A stretch of DNA of 64,000 nt from an uncultured beta proteobacterium (GTDB lineage: Bacteria; Pseudomonadota; Gammaproteobacteria; Burkholderiales; Burkholderiaceae_C), in the NCBI GenBank assembly GCA_903822435.1, contig CAIJPE010000039.1, forward strand, positions 1 through 64,000, given 5' to 3'. Both the position numbers and the translations under genes were made by a program. The notes under the pieces are model-generated. The model was given only the letters and a program-made list of their open reading frames with translations. It searched no databases and was not told the DNA's origin. This document shows, in pieces, positions 2,843-16,899 of this stretch (the stretch's first letter is position 1; the number at the start of each line of letters is the position of its first letter).

Positions 2843-4213
2843 TCACGGGAAGTGGAGTTCCAGGTGCAGGCCGCCCAGGGGCGACGTGCTCAGCCGGATG
2901 GTGGCGCCGTGCGCGTCGGCCACGGACTTCACGATCGACAACCCGAGCCCGCAGCCCTGGCGCTCAACCCCCTGGCCGCGGTAGAAGCGCTCGAAGATTC
3001 GGGGCTGCTCGTCGACCGGCACGCCGGCCCCATCGTCCTCCACCCACACCACGGTGCCGGACCCTTCGGCGCGGGAGCCCACCACCACCTCGCCACCTTC
3101 GCGGGCGTGTGCCACGGCGTTGTGCAGCAGGTTGCGGAGCATCGCTCGCAGCCCGAATTCCGACCCCTGGATCGCTTCCACCCCCAACAGCGTGGTGATC
3201 CGCAAGCGCCGCTGGGTGGCCTCGGCGCCGACATCGTCCAGCAGCCGCTCGAAAAGTGACCCCAGGTCCACCTGGCCACGCTCTCGTGAAAGTCCCAGCG
3301 GGTCGCTGGCCAGCGAGTCGGTGCGGGCCAGATCGAGCAACTGCGTCACCAGGTGCGCGGCCTGGTCCACGCCGTCCTGCAGCGATAGCAAGGCCTGCCG
3401 ACGGGCCGGCTCGGCCATGCCGGTCCGCAGCAGCAGCTGCGCCTGGGCATGCAGGGCGGCCAGCGGCGAGCGCAGTTCGTGCGCGGCTGCGGCCGTGAAG
3501 GAGCGCTCGCTCCGCAACGCCGCCTCGACGCGGCGCATCAGTTGATTGATGCCACCCACCACGGGCGTCAGCTCGGCTGGCAATCCGTCCATCGGCAACG
3601 GGCTGAGATCGGCCGGTCCGCGCCGTGCCAGGTGCCTGGCCGCCGGCTGCAGCGGCGACAGGGCCAGCCGCAGCAACGCCGATGCGAGCAGGCCCAGGGC
3701 TGTTGCCGACACGCCGACGCCGATGGCCAGAGGGCCGCCGAAGACGTCGGCAAGGTTCAGCCGTAGGGAAATGGGTTCGGCCACCTGGATCAGGTTCGTG
3801 CCTGCGGGTTCGCGCAGGGCAATGACGCGAAGCGACTGGCCCGCCACGGTGCGCGTGGTCCAGCCCAGCGGGCCCAGCGGCGCCAAGGGCTGATCGCGCG
3901 GCGCATTCGGGCTGCTGACCAGCAAGCGACCGTCTTGCGACCAGATCTGGTAGCGATAACGTAGGCTCGCCGGCCCATCCTGGTCGACCGGATCCAGGCT
4001 GTCGCCCTCGCGGGCGACCTCTCGGATCTCATGGTCTGCAAAGACCGCCAAGGTCTGGGCCAGATCTTCCAGGCGGGCATCGAAGAGCATCGCGTCCTGC
4101 CGCTGCACGACGGTATAGATGGCCACGGCACCGGCCACCCAGGCCGACACGCAGACGACGCCGACCAGGCTGAGCATCCGCCCGTGCAGTGACCAGGGGC
4201 GCCGTGCCTGCAT
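2843..4213 (-). CDS. Two-component sensor histidine kinase (QseC/TctE-like)
   Basis: H-box AAAHELRSPLAALHAQAQLLL; N box LLHNAVAHA; G boxes VEDDGAGVP and GCGLGLSIVKSVADAHGA. Confidence 0.9.
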   Translation of the reverse strand: MQARRPWSLHGRMLSLVGVVCVSAWVAGAVAIYTVVQRQDAMLFDARLEDLAQTLAVFADHEIREVAREGDSLDPVDQDGPASLRYRYQIWSQDGRLLVSSPNAPRDQPLAPLGPLGWTTRTVAGQSLRVIALREPAGTNLIQVAEPISLRLNLADVFGGPLAIGVGVSATALGLLASALLRLALSPLQPAARHLARRGPADLSPLPMDGLPAELTPVVGGINQLMRRVEAALRSERSFTAAAAHELRSPLAALHAQAQLLLRTGMAEPARRQALLSLQDGVDQAAHLVTQLLDLARTDSLASDPLGLSRERGQVDLGSLFERLLDDVGAEATQRRLRITTLLGVEAIQGSEFGLRAMLRNLLHNAVAHAREGGEVVVGSRAEGSGTVVWVEDDGAGVPVDEQPRIFERFYRGQGVERQGCGLGLSIVKSVADAHGATIRLSTSPLGGLHLELHFP

Positions 4214-4216
4214 GCC

Positions 4217-4900
4217 TCAACGTTCGGCGTACAGGGCGTAGCCGCGTCCGCGCACGGTCTTGATGAGTGCGGGGCCGAGCTTGCGCCGCAGGTGATGCAC
4301 ATGCACTTCCACGGCGTTGCCGCAGAGTTCGTCGGGCCCGGCGCCCGAGGTGGCCTCGGCCAGTTCTTCGCGGCTCAGGACCTGGCCCTTCCGGCGGATG
4401 AGCGCCTCCAGCAACCAGAACTCCCGGTTGGTCAGTTTCAGGTAGCGGCCGTCACAGGACACGGTGCGGCTGGCTGGCATCAGTCGCAAAGGGCCGTGAC
4501 GCAACACGGTCTCGAGGGGCCCGGCCATGCCCCGCCGCCGCTGGACGGCCCGCAGGCGGGCCGAGAGCTCGTCCAGGTGCACGGGCTTGACCAGGAAGTC
4601 GTCGGCGCCCAGATCGAGCAGCCGCACCCGGTCCTGCACCTGCTCGCGCGCCGTCACCACGATCACCGGCAAGTCGAAGTCGGCCGCTCGCAGGCTCTTC
4701 AGCGCGTCTTCGCCCGGCATGTCCGGCAGGCCGAGATCCAGCACCATGCAGTCGAAGCGTCCCGAGCGCAACGTCGGCTCGATCTCGCGGCCCGTGGCGA
4801 TCCATTCCACGTGCACGCCCTCGAGCCCCATCCAGGACCTCAAGGCACCCGCCAGGCGGGCGTCGTCCTCGGCCAGCAGCAGCCGCTTGAGACCGCTCAT
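4217..4900 (-). CDS. OmpR-family response regulator
   Basis: Receiver domain (LLAEDDARLAG, DCMVLDLGLPDMPG) and winged-helix C-terminus (HVHHLRRKLGPALIKTVRGRGYAL). Confidence 0.92.
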   Translation of the reverse strand: MSGLKRLLLAEDDARLAGALRSWMGLEGVHVEWIATGREIEPTLRSGRFDCMVLDLGLPDMPGEDALKSLRAADFDLPVIVVTAREQVQDRVRLLDLGADDFLVKPVHLDELSARLRAVQRRRGMAGPLETVLRHGPLRLMPASRTVSCDGRYLKLTNREFWLLEALIRRKGQVLSREELAEATSGAGPDELCGNAVEVHVHHLRRKLGPALIKTVRGRGYALYAER

Positions 4901-10503: not shown

Positions 10504-11172
10504 TCAGTCCATTGAAATGCGCAAGGCCGCCGCGGTGGCCAGGGGTGCCCCGAGGACGGACAGGATCAGCAAGGCACCCAGCAGCGAGAAGTGGGCCCCT
10601 GGCGACAGGCCCCCGTCGACGGCGCCGACGGCGCCAGTGCCGAAGATCAGCGCCGGTATGGTCAGCGGCAGGACCAGCAGGAAGACGAGCGCCGCACCGC
10701 TGCGCAGGCCCAGCGTCAAGGCCGCTCCCACGGCGCCGAGCAGGCTCAGCACGGGCGTGCCCAGCAGCAGCCCCAGCATCAGCGTGCCGATGGACTCCAT
10801 CCGCATGCCGAAGAGCACGCCGAAGAGCGGTGCCGCCACGACCAGCGGCACGCCGGTGGTCAGCCAATGGGCCAGCACCTTGCCGACCACCAGCAAGAGC
10901 AACGGCTGTGGCGAGAGCAGCATCTGCTCGAGAGAGCCGTCCGCGGCGTCACCGGCAAACATCTGGCTGACCGAGAGCATGGCGGCAAGCAACGCGCAAA
11001 CCCACACGACACCTGGGGCAATCTGGCGAAGCGTCTGAGCTTCAGGACCCACGCCCAAGGGAAACAACCCCACTGCGACCGTGAAGAACCCCAGCGGCAG
11101 CATCACTTCGACTCTTCGGCGACTGGCCAACAACAGGTCACGCTTGGCGATGGCCAGCACGACGGCCGTCAT
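10504..11172 (-). CDS. ccmB: Haem exporter permease CcmB
   Basis: Six-TM CcmB-like protein starting MTAVVLAIAKRDLLLASRRRVEVMLPLGFF; FAGDAADGSLEQMLLSPQPL motif. The ORF track call to 11814 is an upstream extension. Confidence 0.93.
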   Translation of the reverse strand: MTAVVLAIAKRDLLLASRRRVEVMLPLGFFTVAVGLFPLGVGPEAQTLRQIAPGVVWVCALLAAMLSVSQMFAGDAADGSLEQMLLSPQPLLLLVVGKVLAHWLTTGVPLVVAAPLFGVLFGMRMESIGTLMLGLLLGTPVLSLLGAVGAALTLGLRSGAALVFLLVLPLTIPALIFGTGAVGAVDGGLSPGAHFSLLGALLILSVLGAPLATAAALRISMD

Positions 11173-11252
11173 GCTGGGCCGCAAGGCAGATGCATTCGGA
11201 TATCTTGCATGCGTGCCGCCATTGTAAGGGTGGCACGCGCGGGGATTGGTCC

Positions 11253-11840
11253 TTACTCGTCGGGGTCGCGGTACTCCTTGGGCAGGTGGTGTGCGATGCC
11301 TTTGTGGCAATCGATGCAGGTCTTGCCTTCCTGCTGGGCGCCCATGTGCTTCTTGTAGATGCTCTGCTTCTGCTTCTCCGAACTCATGGCGTCGAAGTTG
11401 TGGCAGTTGCGGCATTCGCGCGAGCCGGTGGCCGACATGCGCGCCCATTCGTGCGTGGCCAGTTCCATCCGCTTGGCCTCGAATTTTTCCGGGGTGTCGA
11501 TGGTGCCGATCAGTTTGCCCCAGACTTCGCCGCTGGCCTGGATCTTCCGGGCCATCTTGTGCGTCCAGTCCTTGGGCACATGGCAATCGCTGCAGATGGC
11601 CCGCACGCCGGTGCGGTTTTTGAAGTGGATGGTTTCCTGGTATTCCACGTACACGGTGTCGCGCATCTCGTGGCAACCGGTGCAGAAGGCCAGCGTGTTG
11701 GTGGCCTCCATGCCCGTGTTGAAGGCCCCCCAGAACAGGATGCCGCCCACGAAGCCCAGCACCAGCAGGGTCAGGAGGCCGTACTTTGCGCTCGGCCGGC
11801 GCAGGAACTGCCACGCGCGCTTGATTTTTCCGTCGCTCAT
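11253..11840 (-). CDS. NapC/NirT family tetraheme cytochrome c (CymA-like quinol dehydrogenase/reductase)
   Basis: MSDGKIKRAWQFLRRPSAKYG..., N-terminal TM anchor, FCTGCHEM, CSDCH, CRNCH and CIDCH (4 haems). 4-nt overlap with the upstream MtrB-like gene. Confidence 0.92.
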   Translation of the reverse strand: MSDGKIKRAWQFLRRPSAKYGLLTLLVLGFVGGILFWGAFNTGMEATNTLAFCTGCHEMRDTVYVEYQETIHFKNRTGVRAICSDCHVPKDWTHKMARKIQASGEVWGKLIGTIDTPEKFEAKRMELATHEWARMSATGSRECRNCHNFDAMSSEKQKQSIYKKHMGAQQEGKTCIDCHKGIAHHLPKEYRDPDE

Positions 11841-14521
11841 TGGAAGCTGACCAGGTAGGAAACGGTTACGGTGTGCACCGTGAAGCTGGGTGCCTGCTCG
11901 AAAGTGGGCAGCACGCCCGCCAGTCCGCCGGCCTGCAGGCCGTCGTAGGCCCAATCGGTGGCCTGCATGTGCTGGTAGAGGTAGCCCACGCGCACGGCGC
12001 GGCTGTCGTCGAGTCGCCAGCGCAGCCCGGCCCGCAACTCCACCGTGCGGGTGGTGATGTCGGGCAGCGGCGTGGCGGCAATGTAGTAGGCCGCCACGGT
12101 GCCGGCCGCCGCACCGGTGACCGCCAGCGGGTTGTTGGCATAGTTGCCGCCGGCCGTGTCGTTGGCGGTGCGCGCCGAGGTGTACGACAGGCCGCCGCTC
12201 AGATCGAGCTTGCCGCCGGCCAGGTTCTTCTGCGTGCCCGCGATGCCCAGTGTGCTGACGCGGTCGCGGTTGTCGGCCTTCCAGTCCAGGCAGGGGTCGA
12301 TCTTGTTGTTGGCGTTGCGCAGCGCGATGGTGGCGAAGCAGCCGCCCGAGATCGCCGTGAAGCCGTTGACGTTGACGGCCGTGCTGTTGGCCGTGTAGCT
12401 GTTGCCGGCGCTGGTGGTGTGCTGGTCCTCGAAGGTGACATAAGCCGCGAGACTGGTGTTTTCGCTCGGCGCCCAGCTGCCGTCCAGGTTGGCCGTCCAG
12501 CCGCGCGCCTTCTGCAGGCCGTAGACCGAGTGCGTGTAGTCGTCGCCATTGAGGTCCAGGCCCGCCTGCAGGCTGACGGTGTCGCTGGCCTGCCAGGTCA
12601 GGGCCGACCGCAGCTTGTCGCGCTTGCGGTCGGCCATGTCGTAGCGGCGCATGCCCGGCAACTCGCTGATGCGGTTCTGGTTGGCATACAGGCTGTTGGA
12701 CAGTGCGTTGTTGTTGGCGAAGAAGAACGCAGCGGGGCTGCCGGCGGCCGGCAGGGGGTTCAGGCCCAGCGCCGGCCCGTAGCCGGTCACGCCCAACTGG
12801 GTCATGGTGCCGTAGGCAGTGCTGCCGCCGGGCGCCCCGGTGGGCGACACATTGGCCATCGGCACCAGGGCCAGGAAGGCGTTTTCGTTGTAGTCCACCG
12901 TGCGTTCGGCGTGGGTCAACCCGACCCGGCCGCTCAAGGAATCGGTGGCGTTGAACAGCAGTTCCAGCCGTACCGTGTCTTCGTCGGTCTTGTTGGCGTC
13001 CGCGCAGGCGATCCAGCTGCCGTTGCACCAGTGGTCGACCTTCTGCTTCTGGTAGCCCACCCGCACGGTCTGGCCCGGGGCCAGCCTGTAGTCGCCGTCC
13101 AGGTCCACCTGGTGCAGCTTGCGGCTGTAGGCCCGGTTGGCGTTGATGTTCGCATTGGAGCCCAGGCCCAGCGTGGGGTAGGCGCCGTTGAATACCGAAC
13201 TGCCGGCGTTGCCGCTGCGCAATTCGCTTGCGTCATAGAAGGCGTAGTTGTTCACGGGCGTCTGGTTGTCGCGCTCGTCGAACTTGTAGGCCGCGGACAG
13301 GTTTAGCCCCGCGATCGGCCTCGAGGCCAGGCGCAGGTGCAGTGCACGGTTGACCACCAGGGCCTGCGCCGAGCCCTGCGGCACCAGCACCGTGCTGATG
13401 TCGGTGACGAAGGGCGCGTTCTGGGTGCTGCGGCCAAAGCTCACGCCGCCCGACAGCCGCGTGCTGCTGCCCAGGCGGTACTGGGCATTGACGCCGAGCT
13501 GGTGCAACTCGTTGCTGGGCGCCGAACTCATGGTCTGCGAGTTGGGCGCTGATCCCGGCGTGGCCCAGTTGGCCCAGGTCATCGAGGGCACGTTGTTGGT
13601 CAGCGTCGACAGCAGGTAGTGGCTCTGAACCACCAACCGGTCGCCCGTGTAGTTCAGGCCCAGCGTGATCTGCTCGTGGCTCTGGTCGATCAGGTCGGGG
13701 ATGATGGTGGAAATGTCGCCGCCGGTGAAGCGCGTGATGGTGCCCATGGCCTTCAGGCCGTTGCGGTCTTCGTGGCGCAGGTTGGCCGTGAGGTCCCAGC
13801 GGCTGTCGAGATTGAGCAGTGCGTTGAACTCCAGCCTCTTGCGCTGGGTGCCCAGGCGTACCGTCTGGAAGGCCGGCAGGTCGGCCGACTGGATGGCCGA
13901 GGCCGTGGCCAGCTGGGCCGCCGTGGGCGCCGTGTACACACCGCTGACCAACCCGTTGGAGGCCGTCACGTCGCTGGACAGGCCGCGGGCGTTGGCCCCC
14001 GTGGCGCTGACCCGGGGCACCAGCGGCACCAGCCAGTTGGAGGGCAGGGTCAGGACGTGGGTGCCGGCGCCCAGCAGGGGCGTCTGGTAGGTGTCGGAGC
14101 GGTTGCGCTGCAACTCGTCGTACGTGACGCTGAAGCGCCCCTGGCCCTGTTGCGAGGCCTCGGCCCCCAGGCTGCGTGAATCGGTGCCCAGCTGCAGGCC
14201 CCAGACGCGCCAGCGCGACGCATCGTCGCTGTCCCAGCGGCCGCCGCCGCGCAGGTCGAAGGCACCCACGCCGAAGGTGCCCTTGCGCTTGATGCCGTCG
14301 TATTCGTGGGCCTTGGCCGACGCATCGCTGGTGTTGCCGATGCCCACCTCCACCGTGGACGTGGGTTGGGTCAATGCCGCCGTGGCGGCGTCTTCGGCCA
14401 GCGCCATGCGGGGGGTGCAGACGGTGCCGGCCGCCCCCATGGCCAGCAGGGCGCCCCGCAGAGCGGCCACCGAAGGCCGCAACGCGCAGGCACGGGGAAT
14501 GGGGAGGTGCAGAAGGGACAT
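11837..14521 (-). CDS. MtrB/PioB family decaheme-associated outer-membrane beta-barrel
   Basis: 894 aa, signal peptide, alternating beta-strand pattern throughout, ends VTVSYLVSFQ (C-terminal aromatic), directly downstream of the decaheme gene. Confidence 0.88.
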   Translation of the reverse strand: MSLLHLPIPRACALRPSVAALRGALLAMGAAGTVCTPRMALAEDAATAALTQPTSTVEVGIGNTSDASAKAHEYDGIKRKGTFGVGAFDLRGGGRWDSDDASRWRVWGLQLGTDSRSLGAEASQQGQGRFSVTYDELQRNRSDTYQTPLLGAGTHVLTLPSNWLVPLVPRVSATGANARGLSSDVTASNGLVSGVYTAPTAAQLATASAIQSADLPAFQTVRLGTQRKRLEFNALLNLDSRWDLTANLRHEDRNGLKAMGTITRFTGGDISTIIPDLIDQSHEQITLGLNYTGDRLVVQSHYLLSTLTNNVPSMTWANWATPGSAPNSQTMSSAPSNELHQLGVNAQYRLGSSTRLSGGVSFGRSTQNAPFVTDISTVLVPQGSAQALVVNRALHLRLASRPIAGLNLSAAYKFDERDNQTPVNNYAFYDASELRSGNAGSSVFNGAYPTLGLGSNANINANRAYSRKLHQVDLDGDYRLAPGQTVRVGYQKQKVDHWCNGSWIACADANKTDEDTVRLELLFNATDSLSGRVGLTHAERTVDYNENAFLALVPMANVSPTGAPGGSTAYGTMTQLGVTGYGPALGLNPLPAAGSPAAFFFANNNALSNSLYANQNRISELPGMRRYDMADRKRDKLRSALTWQASDTVSLQAGLDLNGDDYTHSVYGLQKARGWTANLDGSWAPSENTSLAAYVTFEDQHTTSAGNSYTANSTAVNVNGFTAISGGCFATIALRNANNKIDPCLDWKADNRDRVSTLGIAGTQKNLAGGKLDLSGGLSYTSARTANDTAGGNYANNPLAVTGAAAGTVAAYYIAATPLPDITTRTVELRAGLRWRLDDSRAVRVGYLYQHMQATDWAYDGLQAGGLAGVLPTFEQAPSFTVHTVTVSYLVSFQ

Positions 14522-14548: not shown

Positions 14549-15541
14549 TCAGCGCTGGAACTTCGCGCCGGCGGGGTGGTTGGAGCCGTGGACCAGCACG
14601 TGGCAGTTCAGGCAGGCCCTTCCGACCAACTGGGCACGCGCCGCGGCGTTGGCCAGCGGGTTGATGCCATTGACCGTGGTCAGGTTGCCCCCGGCGAGGT
14701 TCGCGCCGCTGTTGGCCTGTGCGCCGTGGTCTCCGCTGTGGCACTGCTGGCACAGCATCGGCGGCCGGGCCTTCAGCAAAGGCGCGTTGGTCGAGCCGTG
14801 CGGCGTGTGGCAGGTGGTGCAATCTTCGGCCACCGGGGCGTGCTCCCACAGGAAGGGGCCGCGCTTCTCGGCGTGGCAGCTGGTGCAGGTGGCGTTGACC
14901 GAGTCCTTGGCCAGCAGCTTGGGCCCGGTCGTGCCGTGCGGGTTGTGGCAGTCGCTGCAGGCCATCTTGCCGGCGGCCAGCGGGTGGGTGGAGATGCGGT
15001 GCGTCTGCGCGCGCTCGGTCTTGTGGCAGGCAAAGCACACCTCGGGCTGCGTGGCCTTGGTCAGCACCGGGTCGGTCTTGCGGTGCACCGAGTGGCAGGC
15101 TGCGCAGGGCACGTTGCGCGACTCGTGTGCGCTGCCGTCCCAGTGCATGCGCAGCCCGCCCTTGTGGCAGGCGATGCAGGTCTCGCTCTGGATGCGCGGG
15201 TCGCTGGCATGGTTGACCGTCGTGTCGGTCTTGTAGACGACTTCGGGCGCCGGTCGGCTGGCGTTGCCCAGGCCCTTGCCGCCCGCCACGTGCTCGTTGC
15301 TCTTGCCGTGGCAGGACTGGCAACTCGGCGTGCGGCTGTCTGCCTTCACGCCGTGCCGTGTTTGGTAGATCGAGAAAATCGGCTTGTTGTCGGTCTCGTC
15401 GTGGCACTTGGTGCACACGGCGTCCTGCGCCAACGCTTCCACCAGCCTCGGCGTCGGGCTCGGGGCCTCGGCCGCCAGTGCCGGGGTACCCATCAGGCAG
15501 GCGAGCGCCAGCCCGACGCACAACCGCGTCATCCAGACCAT
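14549..15541 (-). CDS. DmsE/MtrA-type decaheme c-type cytochrome
   Basis: Signal peptide plus ten CXXCH motifs (CTKCH, CQSCH, CIACH, CAACH, CFACH, CSDCH, CTSCH, CTTCH, CQQCH, CLNCH); HGSNHPAG C-terminus. Confidence 0.95.
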   Translation of the reverse strand: MVWMTRLCVGLALACLMGTPALAAEAPSPTPRLVEALAQDAVCTKCHDETDNKPIFSIYQTRHGVKADSRTPSCQSCHGKSNEHVAGGKGLGNASRPAPEVVYKTDTTVNHASDPRIQSETCIACHKGGLRMHWDGSAHESRNVPCAACHSVHRKTDPVLTKATQPEVCFACHKTERAQTHRISTHPLAAGKMACSDCHNPHGTTGPKLLAKDSVNATCTSCHAEKRGPFLWEHAPVAEDCTTCHTPHGSTNAPLLKARPPMLCQQCHSGDHGAQANSGANLAGGNLTTVNGINPLANAAARAQLVGRACLNCHVLVHGSNHPAGAKFQR

Positions 15542-15602: not shown

Positions 15603-15965
15603 TCAGCGCGACAGGATCCAGCCGATGAGGTTCTTCAACTCGGCGGGGTCCTTGACCTTGACGATCTTGTGTTCCTCTTCGTGTCCGTCGGGGAACTTGG
15701 CCTTCTCACCGGTGGTGAGATGCGTCGTCAAGCGGGCCTCGGCGTCGGCCTTGCCCTTGTATTTCGCTGCTACCTCCTGGTAGGAGGGACCGTCCTTCTT
15801 CTTTTCCACCCCGTGGCACTTGAAGCAGTTGTTCTGCCTCGCGGTGGCCTCTGCCGCCGCCGCGTCCACGGCCATCGCGGATCCGGTGCCGGTGGCCAGG
15901 CACAGGGCCAGGCCAAGGGACTTGCCAAAATTCCGGATCGATTGCCTTGTCGGTTTGTTCGTCAT
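15603..15965 (-). CDS. Small monoheme c-type cytochrome (positional MtoD counterpart)
   Basis: Signal peptide, single NCFKCHG haem motif, 120 aa, first gene of the EET module. Confidence 0.85.
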   Translation of the reverse strand: MTNKPTRQSIRNFGKSLGLALCLATGTGSAMAVDAAAAEATARQNNCFKCHGVEKKKDGPSYQEVAAKYKGKADAEARLTTHLTTGEKAKFPDGHEEEHKIVKVKDPAELKNLIGWILSR

Positions 15966-16093
15966 GTGCGCTCCGTTCGCTTCAGGTTGTCTGGCCTTCG
16001 AGGGCCGTGCGCCAGGACTTCAGCGCATTCTTTTTGTTCAGGTTGCCAAGGTACGCCTTTGCGGGCGCGTCGGGGGTCTTGATTCACCGATCC

Positions 16094-16107
16094 TTGATGC
16101 GAATCAA
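16094..16107. promoter_or_regulatory. FNR/ANR-type binding box upstream of the EET module
   Basis: ttgatgcgaatcaa is a perfect match to TTGAT-N4-ATCAA. Confidence 0.6.
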
Positions 16108-16131
16108 TCCTGGTCCGCGCTTGGGCCGAAC

Positions 16132-16143
16132 CTTGACGTCAAG
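16132..16143. promoter_or_regulatory. 12-bp perfect palindrome, candidate operator
   Basis: cttgacgtcaag is self-complementary and lies in the intergenic region upstream of the cytochrome operon. Confidence 0.35.
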
Positions 16144-16176
16144 CGGCCCTGTCATCCGTTCGTTGGCGAACATAGC

Positions 16177-16198
16177 GAGGCGCCGGGCGCCTCTTTTT
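16177..16198 (+). terminator. Intrinsic terminator oriented for plus-strand transcription
   Basis: GAGGCGC-CGG-GCGCCTC stem-loop followed by TTTTT; no U-tract on the minus side. Confidence 0.6.
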
Positions 16199-16209
16199 CA
16201 TTGCCGGCG

Positions 16210-16899
16210 TCAGCGTGCGGGTTTGCCCGAGGGGGCGCCCAGCATGTGCTCGCGCAGGCCTGCCAGTGGCACGCTCTGGTGGCTGGTCAGCAGCACGGCG
16301 CCGCCGCGCCGGCCCTGTGCCGAGATCAACTCCGACAAGGTCTGCACGCTGGCCGTGTCGAGCGAGTCGTAGGGCTCGTCCAGGATCCAGGTTCGCGGTG
16401 CATCGTCCAGCGCCAGCCGCGCCAGGGCGCCGCGCCGACGCTGACCCTGCGAGAGCGTGCGGACGGCCGCGTTGCGGTGGGCCGACAGGCCGGCGCGCTC
16501 CACCGCGGCGCGGGCCCGTTCGGCCGCATCGGGCAGGCCCGCCAGGCGGGCCAGGAAGCTCAACGATTCGAGCAGGCTCAGGTCGTCCTTCAAGGCATTG
16601 GCATGCCCGATGTAGACCACCCCCGTGCCGGCTTGCGCCCGGGCCTTGCGCAGCGGCTGGCCGTTCCAGGTGACCACGCCCGCTGCCGGCTCCGACAGGC
16701 CACAGAGCATGCGCATCAGGCTGGTCTTTCCGCTGCCGTTGGTGCCGCGCAGCCATGTCAGCGAGCCCGGCGGCAGGGCGATGTCGAGTTGCTCGAACAG
16801 GAGGCGCCGGCCGCGACGGCAACTGAGCCCGCAGCCTTCCAGCAGCCCGGTCGGCTCGGCGGGTGCGGTGGCGGTGGTGGTGGCGGTGGCGGTGGGCAT
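16210..16899 (-). CDS. ccmA: Haem exporter ATP-binding protein CcmA
   Basis: LRGTNGSGKTSLMRMLCGL Walker A; LSQGQRRRGALARL signature; CRRGRRLLFEQLDIALPPG N-terminus typical of CcmA. Confidence 0.92.
   Translation of the reverse strand: MPTATATTTATAPAEPTGLLEGCGLSCRRGRRLLFEQLDIALPPGSLTWLRGTNGSGKTSLMRMLCGLSEPAAGVVTWNGQPLRKARAQAGTGVVYIGHANALKDDLSLLESLSFLARLAGLPDAAERARAAVERAGLSAHRNAAVRTLSQGQRRRGALARLALDDAPRTWILDEPYDSLDTASVQTLSELISAQGRRGGAVLLTSHQSVPLAGLREHMLGAPSGKPAR

Follow-up and report, generated by a model that had tools for sequence, protein, structure and literature searches.

Organization of the locus

The locus lies in a 64-kb window (the whole stretch of DNA analyzed, 64,000 nucleotides), and its genes and features are listed in Table 1. 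On the minus strand the gene order is ccmA, the gap containing an FNR/ANR-type box, mtoD, mtoA, mtoB, cymA, ccmB, ccmC, ccmE, ccmF, a gene for a thioredoxin-like protein and CycH. A complete set for a Mto conduit is present: MtoD, the decaheme MtoA, the MtoB barrel and a NapC/NirT cytochrome. The initial annotation had spoken of an electron-transfer module behind the box. Such a module is indeed there, and its nature, which had not been recognized, is that of a Mto cassette embedded in a phototroph's ccm operon. Since ccmB is a single-copy gene and the mto genes lie between ccmA and ccmB, the cassette splits the only ccm operon of this genome.

The best PDB match of the mtoD product is 4xxl (E 8.8e-41), which we take to be the MtoD of Sideroxydans (PMC4412085). 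MtoA consists of 330 aa, with the first of its heme motifs near residue 43; the N-terminal extension of the PioA type (about 200 aa before the hemes) is absent from it. It is the one MtrA-type decaheme above the family cut-off in the genome. The cymA-like gene was missing from the plain list of open reading frames because it lies concealed within the last part of a longer open frame. A scan for CXXCH found no gene for an extracellular MtrC-type multiheme cytochrome in the cluster. The -10-like element in front of ccmB has counterparts, TACAAT or TAGAAT, at the same gene of five congeners, of which two lack the cassette. A further open frame with three CXXCH motifs occupies positions 1-532 of the minus strand and runs off the contig start; it lies about 4.4 kb past the end of the ccm genes, with a two-component system (2843-4900) between them.

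Table 1. Genes and sequence features of the split ccm operon (positions within the window)
Feature	Position	Strand	Remarks
ccmA	16210..16899	-	upstream of the box; parted from ccmB by the cassette
Hairpin followed by T5	16177..16198	+	terminator-like on the + strand only; weak
FNR/ANR-type box TTGATGCGAATCAA	16094..16107		centre 16100.5; exact TTGAT-N4-ATCAA, conserved in congeners
Extra half-site ATCAA	16079..16083	-	15 bases downstream of the right half of the box
-10-like hexamer TACCTT	16053-16048	-	starts 48 bases past the box centre (downstream); geometry class I-like
Predicted transcription start region	16039..16041	-	7-9 nt after the hexamer; inferred
mtoD	15603..15965	-	monoheme cytochrome c of 120 aa, signal peptide present; first gene past the box
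mtoA	14549..15541	-	decaheme (10 CXXCH), DmsE/MtrA family; TIGR03508, 6r2q
mtoB	11837..14521	-	MtrB/PioB outer-membrane beta-barrel; PF11854, TIGR03509
cymA-like NapC/NirT tetraheme quinol-cytochrome gene	11253..11840	-	ATG overlaps the mtoB stop (ATGA)
-10-like element TACAAT	11221..11226	-	just upstream of ccmB
ccmB	10504..11172	-	sole copy in the genome
ccmC, ccmE, ccmF, thioredoxin-like (CcmG), CycH	downstream of ccmB to about 4900	-	

The FNR/ANR-type box

The initial annotation had claimed a perfect TTGAT-N4-ATCAA in a gap of about 245 bp between ccmA and the first cytochrome gene. Both the sequence and the coordinates of the box proved to be correct, and the gap measures 244 bp (15966-16209). 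The two genes that border it, ccmA and mtoD, are both on the minus strand; read on the strand of the operon, the box is TTGATTCGCATCAA.

This is the single occurrence of the pattern with 0 mismatches in the window, where the runner-up has 2 mismatches. The whole 6.07-Mb genome contains three exact sites including this one; the other two are located within a gene for a PhoB-type response regulator and 5′ of a gene for a 142-aa monoheme cytochrome c. When the 260 bp upstream of mtoD were dinucleotide-shuffled 2000 times, the relaxed pattern YTGAY-N4-RTCAA did not appear once. With one mismatch allowed, about 80 sites (82) were found in the genome, compared with 9 for the pattern read backwards. 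This excess was dropped as a proof of the box: most of the extra sites examined fall inside ORFs and reflect codon use.

Two further elements were noted in the gap. Conservation of the extra ATCAA half-site was not seen among the aligned congeners. The hairpin is perfect and GC-rich, and no gene is evident there on the + strand; it is considered weak because 0.7 chance occurrences are expected in the stretch scanned. A + strand transcript ending at this hairpin was rejected, given that expectation and the fact that neither a promoter nor a gene for it was found.

FNR proteins and their candidate sites in the genome

The initial annotation had made its reading depend on an FNR-family gene being present. 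Five Crp-family proteins are encoded in the genome, and two of them (L004 and L006) contain the iron-sulfur cysteines of FNR, namely C-x2-C-x5-C and a further cysteine matching Cys122 of E. coli FNR, together with an E-x-x-S-R recognition helix. L004 shares 40% identity with E. coli FNR, scores above the NCBIfam Fnr cut-off and has solved FNRs as its best structure matches. The other three proteins (L005, L007 and L008) do not have the FNR cysteines.

Pattern searches of the genome, on which all regulon counts given here rest, identified 16 exact TTGAY-N4-RTCAA sites. Such sites precede ccoN, a hemN-family gene and two usp (universal stress protein) genes; others lie 5′ of the gene for the 142-aa cytochrome c, of a gene whose 481-aa product has one CXXCH and of one for an ion-channel-like protein, and the remaining ones are intragenic. 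At several of these genes a -10-like hexamer puts the box exactly at -41.5: TAAGGT (hemN), AACAAT (ccoN), TAGTCT (cytochrome) and TAGGCT (channel). Sites of the ccoN/hemN type serve as internal positive controls, and FNR in this organism therefore most likely uses this consensus.

The site in front of the 481-aa protein gene (L136) is an FNR-type box, TTGATTCACGTCAA, on contig C196 (13018-13031), about 64 bp upstream of the gene. The protein, whose single CXXCH is N-terminal (NRQTGQNCVACHAGGQFPELTPYGRLFKMTGYT), has no Pfam or NCBIfam match; it may resemble the Cyc2-type fused cytochrome-porins.

The box could also be bound by another regulator of the CRP/FNR family (FixK, DNR/NNR or other), in which case the signal may be nitric oxide, redox state or a phosphorelay instead of oxygen itself. 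FixK recognizes TTGA-N6-TCAA (PMC3050613), and the three Crp-family proteins without FNR cysteines would be available for such a role. We nevertheless regard this as improbable, since two FNR proteins with the full set of cysteines and the E-x-x-S-R helix are encoded and the motif marks ccoN and hemN, which are classical targets of FNR/ANR.

Promoter geometry and its conservation

The initial annotation had seen no clear sigma70 -10 at class II spacing, and this is right. The hexamer at that position is GACGCG, which scores -6.0 (the background median being -1.6), whereas the controls from the same genome score from 0.3 to 4.3. A class II FNR promoter, with the box at about -41.5, was rejected on these grounds. 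The hexamer TACCTT further downstream matches TATAAT in three of six positions, and no clear -35 accompanies it. With the predicted start, the box would be centred at about -59.5 to -61.5, that is, in a class I-like layout. To reach -61.5, the spacing lacks about 2 bp unless transcription starts 9 nt past the hexamer; in the class I layout of E. coli lac (-61.5) the distance from hexamer to box is 2 bp longer than here.

Close congeners were retrieved by searching with ccmA and mtoD. The gene order of G317, ccmA-mtoD-mtoA-mtoB-cymA-ccmB, is that of the window. In G323 (locus L163) mtoAB is lacking and the order is ccmA-mtoD-cymA-ccmB; G322 (L167), G340 (L207) and G341 (L179) are arranged likewise, with a similar promoter. 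That these genomes retain mtoD-cymA behind such a promoter in the absence of mtoAB suggests that this pair has a role of its own. An FNR-type box is present in all six cassette-bearing ccmA-ccmB gaps, the window included, and in none of the 15 congeners in which ccmA directly adjoins ccmB. It was also found at mtoD in both G319 and G368, where the stretches read around mtoD contain no ccm genes.

Overall, an FNR-type box is located upstream of mtoD in eight out of eight promoters compared (the window and seven congeners), although these promoters are not independent: the genomes are related, and G322, G340 and G341 are close to each other. Seven of the eight have a TAnnnT starting 48 or 49 bases from the box centre, and in each of these it is the sole TAnnnT between positions 1 and 82 from the centre, the background in these loci being 0.0007 per position. 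The hexamer is TACCTT in the window, TATCTT in three promoters and TAAGGT in three. When the sequences were compared in fixed register, identity averaged 84% over the ten specified positions of the box and 49% over the hexamer, against 26-35% in the surrounding blocks; three congeners have CTGAY in place of TTGAY. As the flanks have diverged to 31-35% identity, we argue that the box and the hexamer have been kept by selection. In G319 (L175), a genome without pufLM, mtoD-mtoA-mtoB is preceded by a perfect box, TTGATCGCAATCAA, and there is no TAnnnT at position 48; its promoter geometry may differ.

Whether the box serves activation or repression had been left open in the initial annotation; the conserved class I-like -10 now favors activation under low oxygen. 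As a repressor site, the box would instead overlap a promoter with its left half TTGATT as the -35 and AATCAA, 17 bp further on, as a poor -10, which FNR would block under anoxia. Among sigma70-like candidates on the gap's minus strand, this pair ranks first (score 7.1). Its agreement with the consensus is limited to 7 of 12 positions, however, a strict scan yields no promoter, and the arrangement was not seen in the aligned congeners, which do have the -10 at position 48. Repression of this kind appears very unlikely. That the box is a chance match without a role, with the cassette transcribed from the ccmA promoter, is hardly credible: one-mismatch sites are numerous in the genome (most of those examined being inside ORFs), but here position and spacing are conserved in diverged DNA and the box co-occurs with the cassette.

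Proposed control of the operon

We consider it likely that the box is an oxygen-sensing FNR site at a class I-like promoter that activates mtoD-mtoA-mtoB-cymA when oxygen is low. Oxygen-responsive control of the conduit, as proposed in the initial annotation, is supported by the conservation of the box, its co-occurrence with the cassette, the FNR genes and the presence of the motif at expected targets. The comparison also extends that proposal: in this genus, every mtoD cassette located within the ccm operon is preceded by both the box and a class I-like -10. Because the box and the promoter element are preserved at the same place in photosynthetic relatives, the conduit is probably made mainly when oxygen is scarce.

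From these sequence features we infer FNR binding, activation, the extent of the transcript and the oxygen response of the mto operon as follows. In the absence of oxygen, a dimer of [4Fe-4S] FNR would bind the box about 60 bp upstream of the start, contact RNA polymerase from upstream and recruit it to the TAnnnT -10 (TACCTT). The mRNA for mtoD-mtoA-mtoB-cymA would start there and could read through into ccmB-H, for which a separate TACAAT promoter would also be available. The conduit and part of the cytochrome-maturation machinery would then rise jointly as oxygen falls, together with the cbb3 oxidase (ccoN) and hemN. Strict dependence of ccmB-H on FNR is unlikely, as this is the sole ccmB in the genome and has its own TACAAT element. 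Given the TACAAT/TAGAAT-like element next to ccmB, cytochrome maturation at a basal level could proceed independently of the FNR promoter.

Physiological setting

The genome contains pufL and pufM, RuBisCO and, adjacent to pufLM, a frame with four CXXCH motifs that is probably pufC. RuBisCO is present in all seven congeners compared and pufLM in five of the seven. The organism is accordingly a purple phototroph, probably a Rubrivivax or a close relative. In view of pufLM and RuBisCO, the cassette probably encodes a conduit through which a purple betaproteobacterium takes up electrons and which low oxygen switches on. Uptake of electrons, for example from Fe(II), in anoxic light or under micro-oxic conditions is plausible because the cluster has no gene for a surface MtrC-type cytochrome; that the conduit works in this direction, for photosynthesis or micro-oxic respiration, is less certain than its control. 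MtoD of Sideroxydans is reported to lack an interaction with MtoA and ImoA and might pass electrons to a high-potential acceptor (PMC13390432); one could speculate that the reaction center or the cbb3 oxidase is that acceptor here. Rubrivivax is among the genera rich in pio/mto components (PMC10654088), and the form of PioA with a long N-terminal extension is the one conserved in phototrophs (PMC6831781). We tentatively propose, as a possibility rather than an expectation, that Rubrivivax-like purple betaproteobacteria have an oxygen-gated, ccm-embedded system of extracellular electron uptake with a short MtoA in place of PioA, switched on by FNR in class I-like manner, as a candidate route of phototrophic iron oxidation.

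If the proposed control is right, it tells when the conduit is made, that is, at low oxygen, and pinpoints the promoter bases. It would also point to electron uptake, possibly phototrophic oxidation of Fe(II), by purple betaproteobacteria whose decaheme is of the short MtoA type. Natural controls exist within the genus, namely the promoter with mtoAB (window and G317), the promoter without mtoAB (G323, G322, G340 and G341) and the 15 cassette-free congeners.

Comparison with known systems

The closest known case of a conduit operon with a CRP/FNR-family box is pioABC of Rhodopseudomonas palustris TIE-1, which FixK activates from a box at -44.5, with a second box at -137.5 (PMC3050613). In both cases a box of this family stands before an MtrA/MtrB-type conduit in a purple phototroph, and expression of pioABC is anaerobic. 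The two differ in that pioABC combines FixK with a class II box and a second one, whereas here there is a single box with class I-like spacing; pioABC encodes a PioA with a long N-terminus, whereas here we find a short MtoA, FNR with Fe-S cysteines and a location inside the ccm operon. The ccoN and hemN promoters of the same genome share the motif, and probably the regulator, with the mto box, but their -10-like hexamers put the box at -41.5 (class II) while the mto -10 is near class I distance.

The gene set, MtoD, MtoA, MtoB and a NapC/NirT quinol cytochrome (CymA/ImoA), is like that of the Mto pathway of Sideroxydans lithotrophicus ES-1 (PMC4412085, PMC13390432). Unlike in ES-1, mtoD comes first here and the cassette is flanked by ccmA and ccmB. 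Searching the text of PMC13390432 for FNR or regulation gave no hit. Linkage of conduit genes to cytochrome c maturation genes is known from betaproteobacterial mtr clusters, which adjoin complete ccmA-I operons (PMC8805035). There the conduit is beside a complete ccm operon, whereas here the cassette separates ccmA from ccmB and the FNR-type promoter is at the junction. What appears to be new is an FNR promoter of class I-like layout, its location within the ccm operon and a decaheme of the short MtoA type in a phototroph. An FNR class I-like promoter at a split-ccm junction was not described in the open-access papers that we found and searched, which is weak evidence of novelty.

Occurrence of the box at other conduits

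A first set of homologues, with MtoA about 50% identical, contained no box. We compared 76 conduit relatives, from named genomes of many taxa, with upstream regions in the same loci as controls. An exact TTGAY-N4-RTCAA was located at most 350 bp upstream of the first gene in 9 of 76 conduits, as opposed to 17 of the 1299 controls (p = 4e-6, Fisher test); dinucleotide shuffles agree, and the Fisher figure should be read alongside them because some control regions overlap coding DNA. The box thus appears to be a recurring yet minority feature of such conduits. As most of the more distant conduits are without it, this control seems to be lineage-specific. Two FNR-type boxes each were observed 5′ of the conduits of a Rhodoferax sp. 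OV413 MAG (L126; TTGACACAGATCAA and TTGACATCAATCAA) and of a Burkholderiales MAG (L116; TTGACCAGGATCAA and TTGATCTATATCAA).
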